DNA of 64,000 nt from an uncultured Candidatus Binatia bacterium (lineage in GTDB: Bacteria > Desulfobacterota > Binatia > Bin18): the NCBI GenBank assembly GCA_958296235.1, contig OY282457.1:62001-126000 (forward strand), written 5' to 3'. This document shows positions 748-2,612 of this stretch, piece by piece. The position numbers were made by a program, and so were the translations under genes. The notes under the pieces were generated by a model that searched no databases, was not told the origin of the DNA, and worked only from the letters and a program-made list of their open reading frames with translations. Positions within the stretch are counted from its first letter, which is position 1, and each line of letters begins with the position of its first letter.

Positions 748-767
748 AATCATTGTAGGAGGTGCGT

Positions 768-1355
768 ATGGGACAGATTGAAGTCCTCAGTCCGGTTGGA
801 GAAGCGCAAGTCGGCGATCTGCCGCTTGCCCGACGAGACCGGAACTTACAAGGGAAAACAATCGGCTTTCTAAATAACCGCAAGGCCAACGCCGGCCTGC
901 TGCTCGAACAGGTGGAAGCGCTGCTGCACGAACGCTGTGGAGATTTCGCTGTTATTAAAGGTGAAAAGAATGCCTCACTCGGCGCACCCAAAGAGGTCAT
1001 GGCCCGCCTGTCAACCTGTGACGTGGTTGTCGCGGCCATAGGCGATTGAGGCTCATGCACGTCGTGGGGTCTCCACGACACCATTGAACTGGAAAAGCAG
1101 GGAGTTCCGACCGCCATCATTTGCAGCGACGAGTTTGCGCCGCTCGGCCGTGCCGAGTCCCGCACCCTGGGTATGAGCGGTGTGCCCATTGCCGTGATTC
1201 CCCATCCCCTGGCCGGTAATACGCCGCAGGTGGTACAGGCCAAAGCCGCGGCTGTGGTGGATGAAATTCTGGCTATTTTGACCCAGCCCGCGGAGCAGTT
1301 GGCCGACAGGTATCGCGGGCGGTTTCTTAAGCCGATGGGGAAAAAGATCGCATGA
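768..1355 (+). CDS. UGSC-family selenoprotein (Sec at in-frame UGA 1047-1049)
   Basis: An AGGAGG at 757-762 places the start at ATG 768. The frame meets UGA at 1047-1049 and continues open to a second UGA at 1353-1355, giving 195 residues with selenocysteine at position 94. The context reads AAIGD-U-GSC-TSWGLHD, which is the U-G-S-C signature that names the UGSC selenoprotein family known from environmental genomes. A GTCGTGG/CCACGAC stem with a GGTCT loop begins 11 bases after the UGA, as in bacterial SECIS elements. The C-terminal half (GVPIAVIPHPLAGN) continues the same fold. The Sec/Cys motif suggests a redox or thiol-dependent catalytic site; the biochemical role of the family is unknown. 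The gene's own terminator codon is also UGA, so UGA has both meanings in one message. Confidence 0.92.
1047..1079 (+). promoter_or_regulatory. Sec UGA codon and bacterial SECIS-like hairpin
   Basis: The UGA at 1047-1049 is followed by a perfect 7-bp stem, GTCGTGG (1061-1067) with CCACGAC (1073-1079), closing a five-base GGTCT loop. Stem distance and the GG-containing loop resemble the fdhF SECIS that SelB recognises. The helix also encodes protein, as in other bacterial SECIS elements. Confidence 0.85.
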
Positions 1356-1529: not shown

Positions 1530-2612
1530 ATGGATTGCCAATCAGACAAAATCTCCCTGGACGATTCTCTCGAATCCGTCAATGACTGGTTTTACGACCA
1601 GGGCTGGACGGATGGTCTCCCGATTATTCCACCCACACCCGAGCGGGTAGAAAAGATGCTGGCCTGGACGGACCGCGCTCCCCAAGACGCGCTGGGGCCG
1701 ATACCGCCCGGATACGGCAGTGCCACACTGGAAAAATTAGCCGTAAACGCAGTCATGGCCGGCTGTGTGCCCGAATATTTTCCGGTCATTATTGCCGCGG
1801 TTGAGGCATTGCTCGAAGGCCCGTTCAATCTGTACGGGGTTCAGAGTACAACCCATCCCTGCGCGCCGCTGCTGATTCTCAACGGCCCGATTGCGGCTGA
1901 GCTCGGCGTCAACTCTCGCTACAACGCCTTTGGCCAGGGCTGGCGGCCAAACGCCACAGTCGGTCGAGCGATTCGCCTGGTTTTGCTGAATATCGGTGGG
2001 GGAACGCCAGGCATGCTGGACCGCTCAACCCAGGGCCAGCCCTCCAAGTACAGCTATTGTATTGCCGAGAACGAGGAGGAAAACCCTTGGGGACCGCTGC
2101 ATGTCGAACGCGGCTTTGCAGCCGAGACCAGCACGGTCACCGTCTGCGGAGCGGAAGGGCCGCATAATATCAACGACCATATCAGCAGTGCCGCACCGGG
2201 GATTCTGACGACCATTGCCAGCACCATGGCTGGTATGGGCTCGAATAATGCCTACGCCTTTGGTGAACCGATTCTCGCGCTTGGACCGGAGCACGCCGAT
2301 ATTCTGGCCCGAGACGGCATCTCAAAAGACGACATCCGCACCTATATTTTTGAGCACGCCCGGGTGCCGCGCGAACAGTGGGAGGCGGGCGGCATGATCG
2401 GCATGGGGTTTACCCCGGATGACGCCTTTCCCGAAGCGGACGCCATCCCGCTGATCCGCAAGCCGGAACGGCTCATGGTTCTTGTCGTCGGTGGTCCGGG
2501 TCGCCACTCCTGCTGGATGCCTACGTTCGGGGCCATGACTCGCTCCGTCACCCGTCAGATTGCCCTCAAAGACGGCCGGCCAGCCACGTCTATTCAAGAG
2601 TTTCGTCGCTAG
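1530..2612 (+). CDS. Conserved protein of unknown function, probable UGSC partner
   Basis: This 360-residue soluble protein starts at ATG 1530 behind a purine-rich AGGAGGGAGG stretch. It is rich in glycine turns and carries Cys/His sites that look conserved: HPCAPLLILNG near residue 108, VCGAEGPHNIND near 207 and RHSCWMPTFGA near 328. It has no signal peptide or transmembrane helix. It follows the UGSC selenoprotein on the same strand with only a repeat between, suggesting that the two act together. I recognise no enzyme family with confidence. The Cys and His residues could bind a metal or work with the Sec/Cys site; that is inference. Confidence 0.75.
   Translation: MDCQSDKISLDDSLESVNDWFYDQGWTDGLPIIPPTPERVEKMLAWTDRAPQDALGPIPPGYGSATLEKLAVNAVMAGCVPEYFPVIIAAVEALLEGPFNLYGVQSTTHPCAPLLILNGPIAAELGVNSRYNAFGQGWRPNATVGRAIRLVLLNIGGGTPGMLDRSTQGQPSKYSYCIAENEEENPWGPLHVERGFAAETSTVTVCGAEGPHNINDHISSAAPGILTTIASTMAGMGSNNAYAFGEPILALGPEHADILARDGISKDDIRTYIFEHARVPREQWEAGGMIGMGFTPDDAFPEADAIPLIRKPERLMVLVVGGPGRHSCWMPTFGAMTRSVTRQIALKDGRPATSIQEFRR

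Follow-up and report, generated by a model that had tools for sequence, protein, structure and literature searches.

According to the available parts of PMC2398784, UGSC is a major selenoprotein family of the Global Ocean Sampling (GOS) metagenome, with 255 selenocysteine (Sec) and 21 Cys forms, and the family is called thioredoxin-like both there and in the accessible text of PMC13188914. No function is assigned to UGSC in the accessible portions of the literature on the family, though it is among the most abundant GOS selenoproteins (PMC2398784), in agreement with the initial annotation of the locus studied here, which listed the family as lacking a known biochemical function. An 'Unknown_1' fusion was noted in 2008; the pairing of UGSC described below is more general, and Unknown_1 is not equated with the present partner.

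GrdB binds the substrate for attack by Sec and cooperates with GrdA (PMC13188914 and PMC10838667, available parts). For FarB, a GrdB-like protein from anaerobic Synergistota that occurs alongside other grd genes, an attack by Sec has been proposed to break the C-F bond of monofluoroacetate, which suggests that recruitment of GrdB-type proteins to non-amino-acid substrates is possible; FarB is likened to UGSC by description and not by sequence (PMC10838667, available parts). Where the accessible literature treats both UGSC and GrdB, its UGSC parts draw no link between them. The UGSC family itself is already known, and what is new here is its strict pairing with a second protein, its relationship to GrdB and the absence of GrdA.

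The UGSC gene and its selenocysteine codon

The analyzed stretch of DNA (the window, 64,000 nucleotides of contig OY282457.1 from an uncultured Candidatus Binatia bacterium) contains the following features.

757–762, plus strand: AGGAGG, a ribosome-binding-like site 5 bases before ATG 768 (from sequence)
768–1355, plus strand: UGSC-family selenoprotein gene, 195 aa, Sec at residue 94, terminal TGA at 1353–1355 (profile matches, AlphaFold2 model)
1047–1049, plus strand: selenocysteine codon TGA within GD-U-GSC (of 119 distinct homologous genes, 113 share this TGA)
1061–1079, plus strand: SECIS hairpin of bacterial type with a stem of 7 bp and the loop GGUCU; distance from the UGA to the apical loop, 18 nt
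1530–2612, plus strand: putative partner subunit gene, 360 aa (near-obligate pairing, conserved residues)

The UGSC frame starts at ATG 768, runs for 93 codons to the TGA at 1047–1049 and continues for another 101 codons to the TGA at 1353–1355. The hairpin begins 11 bases after the first TGA, with the stem halves GTCGTGG and CCACGAC at 1061–1067 and 1073–1079 and the loop GGTCT at 1068–1072. The single in-frame UGA in its D-U-GSC context, the reopened frame of 101 codons ending in UGA and the 7-bp stem with its loop had all been described in the initial annotation and were recovered exactly. As it had also anticipated, a standard ORF list breaks the gene in two, at 762–1049 and 1173–1355.

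The joined protein scored 145 bits against NF041046 (cut-off 125; model positions 1–147 of 147) and 170 bits against PF24696 (cut-off 25; model positions 1–172 of 172), above both curated cut-offs, and it carries the (U/C)GSC family motif as GD-U-GSC at residue 94. With the family it shares the whole domain, the motif and the SECIS. Judged by its sequence, the window protein is an ordinary, well-supported member of this known selenoprotein family, and the UGSC-type identity first given to it stands.

The genome containing the window (4.62 Mb in one contig, 98 % complete) was searched for the Sec machinery, as had been proposed earlier. SelA (525 bits), SelB (386 bits, cut-off 242), SelD (310 bits, cut-off 125) and tRNA-Sec (68.6 bits, found by ARAGORN as well) are all present. 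Two tRNA-Sec genes lie ∼1 kb apart beside selA, at C1:2956298-2956393 and C1:2957297-2957377 (L032 8299-8394 and 9298-9378, minus strand); the second is 15 nt shorter in the region of the variable arm and folds less well, and may therefore be a degenerate copy.

Among 119 distinct UGSC genes, the codon at the Sec position was TGA in 113, which all continue beyond it, and Cys in six, so the concern that the homologues might all stop at this point was not borne out. The hairpin, the complete Sec machinery and the TGA kept in homologues together indicate that the TGA is a Sec codon, and the window gene almost certainly encodes a selenoprotein.

The window hairpin has a folding energy of −10.4 kcal/mol, which was reached by none of 100 synonymous (protein-keeping) shuffles; compared alone with dinucleotide shuffles it was not exceptional (z −0.3 to −1.1 in three sequence windows). 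A hairpin of −4 kcal/mol or lower with G in the first two loop positions was found in 113 of 113 distinct Sec genes, which supports the SECIS-like reading given at the outset, and 99 of these hairpins ranked in the best 10 % when set against synonymous shuffles of the same gene. Over the 113 Sec genes the energy averaged −9.9 kcal/mol, compared to −3.5 for synonymous shuffles, and a control placed 40 codons downstream gave no signal (−1.8 versus −1.7; 3 of 117 genes in the best 5 %). The apical loop lies 17–24 nt after the UGA in all 113 Sec genes, at 18–19 nt in 102 of them, and the hairpin centre is identical in 100. When 85 distinct hairpin regions were compared, five stem pairs were canonical in 85/85 (at most 63/85 in shuffles), one pair showed up to 25 changes affecting both sides of the stem, and the G and U at the apex did not vary. 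In the E. coli fdhF SECIS, too, the apical loop is GGUCU. The strong hairpin is missing in four of the six Cys-form genes and kept in L070 (−9.9) and L085 (−8.2).

Besides the window copy, five UGSC genes were found in the genome, each with exactly one TGA inside the match and 26–39 % identical to the window copy. In alignments of UGSC and partner sequences thinned at 80 % identity, one of which took only part of the unfused sequences, the UGSC residues U94 (Sec or Cys), G95, C97 and F123 are kept in 71/71 members and N37, K39, K67, G112, H146 and P147 in at least 64 of 71. One locus (L138) has a variant motif, U-G-T-S, without the resolving Cys. Four genomes (G033, G198, G208 and G252) gave at least eight UGSC matches each among eight candidates scored, so that their true number may exceed the six of the window genome.

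A partner gene paired with UGSC

The initial annotation did not include the partner gene at 1530–2612, the other five pairs of UGSC and partner, or the link to GrdB. The 360-aa partner ORF gave no match in Pfam, NCBIfam or PDB, and within its family Pfam matched 0 of 80 members. Two single-member matches to NCBIfam were judged to be chance and rejected as a guide to function, and the sole match in a sequence search for a relative in PDB, DnaB with E 0.26, was rejected as well. Partner residues D28, G29, P31, A77, G78, G119, P120, G145, R146, E180 and W187 occur in 80/80 homologues, and C79 in 79/80.

Six partner copies are present in the genome, one adjoining each UGSC gene (6/6); UGSC comes first in the window pair and the partner first in the other five. 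The partner paralogues are 37–47 % identical to the window partner, and from these values and the 26–39 % identity of the UGSC paralogues the duplications look old.

A survey of 395 genomes of the phylum yielded 38 UGSC-positive and 38 partner-positive genomes, 37 of them in common, with at most eight UGSC and five partner candidates scored per genome, so that copy numbers are lower bounds. In the UGSC-only genome (G358), a 24.8-bit match 1.9 kb from grdA is probably grdB and was counted as a pairing miss; in the partner-only genome (G169) the match lies within a 133-aa frame. The partner is present in 28 of 29 UGSC-anchored loci. Conversely, 71 of 80 partner-anchored loci from named genomes have UGSC on the same strand within 1 kb, the remaining nine being L072, L080, L104, L114, L130 and the four Poribacteria loci L131, L137, L144 and L148. 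UGSC is first in 95 and the partner in 28 of 123 pairs, a count in which the single UGSC gene of L080 is paired twice and the partner of L052 is split in two. Natural in-frame fusions occur in both orders; a mechanical test gave 38, not all of them true, since L093 (a Cys form whose two genes are separated by a TGA) is no true fusion and L115 is a partial one. The pairing of UGSC with the partner is, from these gene counts, near-obligate and sometimes realized in one chain, and the two very probably form a functional pair.

The fused chain of L074 was modeled as one confident unit (pLDDT 93.2, pTM 0.93). Foldseek gave no match for this model at E 0.001 or better, and its VIA matches fall mainly on the UGSC part; the partner fold is not claimed as new. 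A GrdE-type pyruvoyl precursor was considered for the partner and rejected: across the six paralogues no Cys is conserved in its 'VTVxG' stretch, so no pyruvoyl-type cleavage site is evident.

In the four Poribacteria loci (L131, L137, L144 and L148) the partner is ∼30 residues shorter and stands without UGSC in the DNA examined, and, with L131 as reference, no neighbor gene apart from the partner is common to all four. UGSC/partner pairs were also seen in metagenome bins titled Bordetella parapertussis (L081, L121, L127, L128 and L139), a label that may be wrong.

Relationship to GrdB and PrdB and the predicted fold

When 71 UGSC members were compared with GrdB-family models, TIGR01917 matched 33 of them (best 1.9e-6), GrdF 13, TIGR01918 11, GrdH six and PrdB four, and unrelated families matched at most four. 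The window protein itself reached 18.4 bits against TIGR01917, below the family cut-off of 602. PF07355, the Pfam GrdB model, matched 0 of 71 members; in the GrdB loci read, this model ends just before the Sec. For profile alignment the GrdB-family loci were read through the UGA. Aligned by hhalign to 12 long GrdB proteins, UGSC gave a probability of 95 and E 3e-8 over 87 columns, with Sec placed on Sec and Cys on Cys, and against short PrdB-like proteins a probability of 62 and E 7.5e-5. The same method detected no homology between UGSC and the partner or between the partner and GrdB. By profile comparison, UGSC is distantly related to the selenoproteins GrdB and PrdB, its C-terminal half being homologous to the Sec-bearing half of GrdB, and the homology to GrdB is limited to ∼80–90 residues around Sec.

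Like UGSC, the selenoproteins GrdB, GrdF and GrdH of glycine, sarcosine and betaine reductase (TIGR01917, TIGR01918) have UG(S/T)C at a strand-to-helix turn, E..G(I/V)P and a P-H-P motif. In contrast to GrdB, UGSC has no GrdB N-terminal half, and the window copy lacks the second Cys of UxxCxxC: in its UGSCTSW the first Cys is present and the second is replaced by Trp, as in many homologues. Of the six copies in the genome, three (L028, L029 and L030) have the full GrdB-like UxxCxxC. PrdB of D-proline reductase (TIGR04483) and the short PF07355 selenoproteins resemble UGSC in size and as small Sec subunits, with a weaker profile match, but are a separate family, of which the genome has two members besides its six UGSC genes. 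These two short PF07355 (PrdB/GrdB-like) genes lie at C1:972416-972835 (L165) and C1:2978713-2979069, and the former runs on past its TGA as U-PVC.

GrdA was not found in the genome by a search that was positive in 9/9 added genomes with GrdB; among the 38 UGSC-positive genomes it was detected in four. Therefore, the window system is not a standard glycine reductase, and UGSC must function independently of GrdA. As for GrdE, none of its models is matched by the partner, and PF09338 (GrdE) gave no match in the genome in a search run without a positive control.

The AlphaFold2 model of the window UGSC protein (pLDDT 94.4, pTM 0.88) consists of five alternating beta-alpha units with Sec at the N-terminus of a helix. 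Its top-50 Foldseek and VIA matches are mostly flavodoxin-like, azoreductase, receiver and B12-binding folds, the best Z among these generic flavodoxin-like and related neighbors being 10.6, and no thioredoxin is among the structural matches listed. The model shows a predicted flavodoxin-like alternation instead of a thioredoxin fold, which would call the published thioredoxin-like label into question. A sequence search for a UGSC relative in PDB gave as best match a designed coiled-coil protein (E 0.03), which was rejected.

Gene context, proposed chemistry and alternatives

The neighbors of the UGSC/partner pairs in the genome are catabolic and include amidohydrolases with a luciferase-like monooxygenase, a cyclase, RidA with MaoC, a PLP decarboxylase and a metallo-beta-lactamase-fold hydrolase. 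TctC was the only recurrent neighbor family, in 13 of 130 close versus seven of 130 distant ORFs (the distant set comprising 136, of which six were left out for size); every other close-neighbor family had at most three ORFs, among the best 25 of 85 families. With neighbors this diverse and TctC at 13 versus seven, gene context was rejected as uninformative about the substrate. Divergently upstream of UGSC, at 2–415 on the minus strand of the window (L034 11811-12416), lies a gene that looks DsbA-like by eye, a possible reductant, and beyond it are two ORFs that by eye appear nitroreductase-like.

The locus may be read as one copy of a two-subunit GrdB-like enzyme in which Sec attacks a substrate carbon, with a probability of about 0.5 for this reading as a whole; that UGSC and the partner cleave a C-N or other C-X bond in the manner of GrdB is, by analogy, a little short of an even chance. 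As in GrdB, the Sec selenolate, at the N-terminal end of the helix that follows the third strand, would attack a carbon of a small substrate, which may be held in a pocket between UGSC and the partner, and would expel a leaving group, either an amine or a different group, for instance a halide. The covalent Se-adduct would then be reduced off with the help of the UGSC Cys (UxxC), with Cys97 as resolving thiol, and a thiol- or thioredoxin-type reductant would renew the Sec site. The partner might fill the place of GrdE in glycine reductase, in substrate binding and activation, an analogy of role that involves no direct comparison of the partner with GrdE. As no GrdA was found, the product would not be passed on to acetyl phosphate, and the six divergent copies in different catabolic neighborhoods suggest several substrates for one chemistry.

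The UxxC at the N-terminus of a helix in the model and the DsbA-like gene divergently upstream would also suit a thiol-disulfide oxidoreductase of thioredoxin-like fold, with the partner as its redox substrate or reductase. This is unlikely, because the model is a five-strand fold of alternating beta and alpha elements, with mostly flavodoxin-like, azoreductase, receiver and B12-binding folds among its top-50 matches, and the sequence relatives are GrdB and PrdB. It is about equally improbable that the pair works as a racemase, isomerase or lyase, with Sec and Cys serving in acid-base or addition-elimination chemistry and no net reduction: lyase, isomerase and amidohydrolase families occur among the neighbors, and no conserved reductase subunit stands alongside among the neighbor families listed, but the retention of Sec in 113 of 119 genes is more in keeping with nucleophilic and redox chemistry, and the characterized relatives GrdB and PrdB are reductase subunits.

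It is very improbable that the pair detoxifies metals or organometal species, to which Sec and Cys would bind as ligands. Several uncharacterized selenoproteins are thought to bind metals (PMC13188914, available parts), yet no recurrent metal-resistance family was seen among the 130 close neighbors (best 25 of 85 families), and the context is catabolic. That the TGA at 1047–1049 is a sequencing error or an ordinary stop can practically be dismissed: the only point in its favor is that a short ORF would result, and against it stand the TGA in 113/119 homologues, the SECIS in 113/113, the full Sec machinery and five more own-genome copies with one TGA each.

Extending the reading as a GrdB-like enzyme beyond this locus, it may tentatively be proposed, at lower confidence than for the locus itself, that UGSC and the partner are unrecognized GrdA-independent two-subunit Sec reductases (or C-X lyases) that radiated in environmental bacteria, with a Cys form in a haloarchaeon, each pair having its own catabolic substrate. 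If so, UGSC and the partner would represent an offshoot of the glycine/proline reductase superfamily that lies outside the fermentation of amino acids. The near-obligate partner, the predicted fold and the GrdB/PrdB superfamily make the bond broken by UGSC a testable question, and the Cys forms that occur naturally in Natrialba asiatica and Sphingomonas (L085, L091 and L093) permit expression without the selenocysteine machinery.
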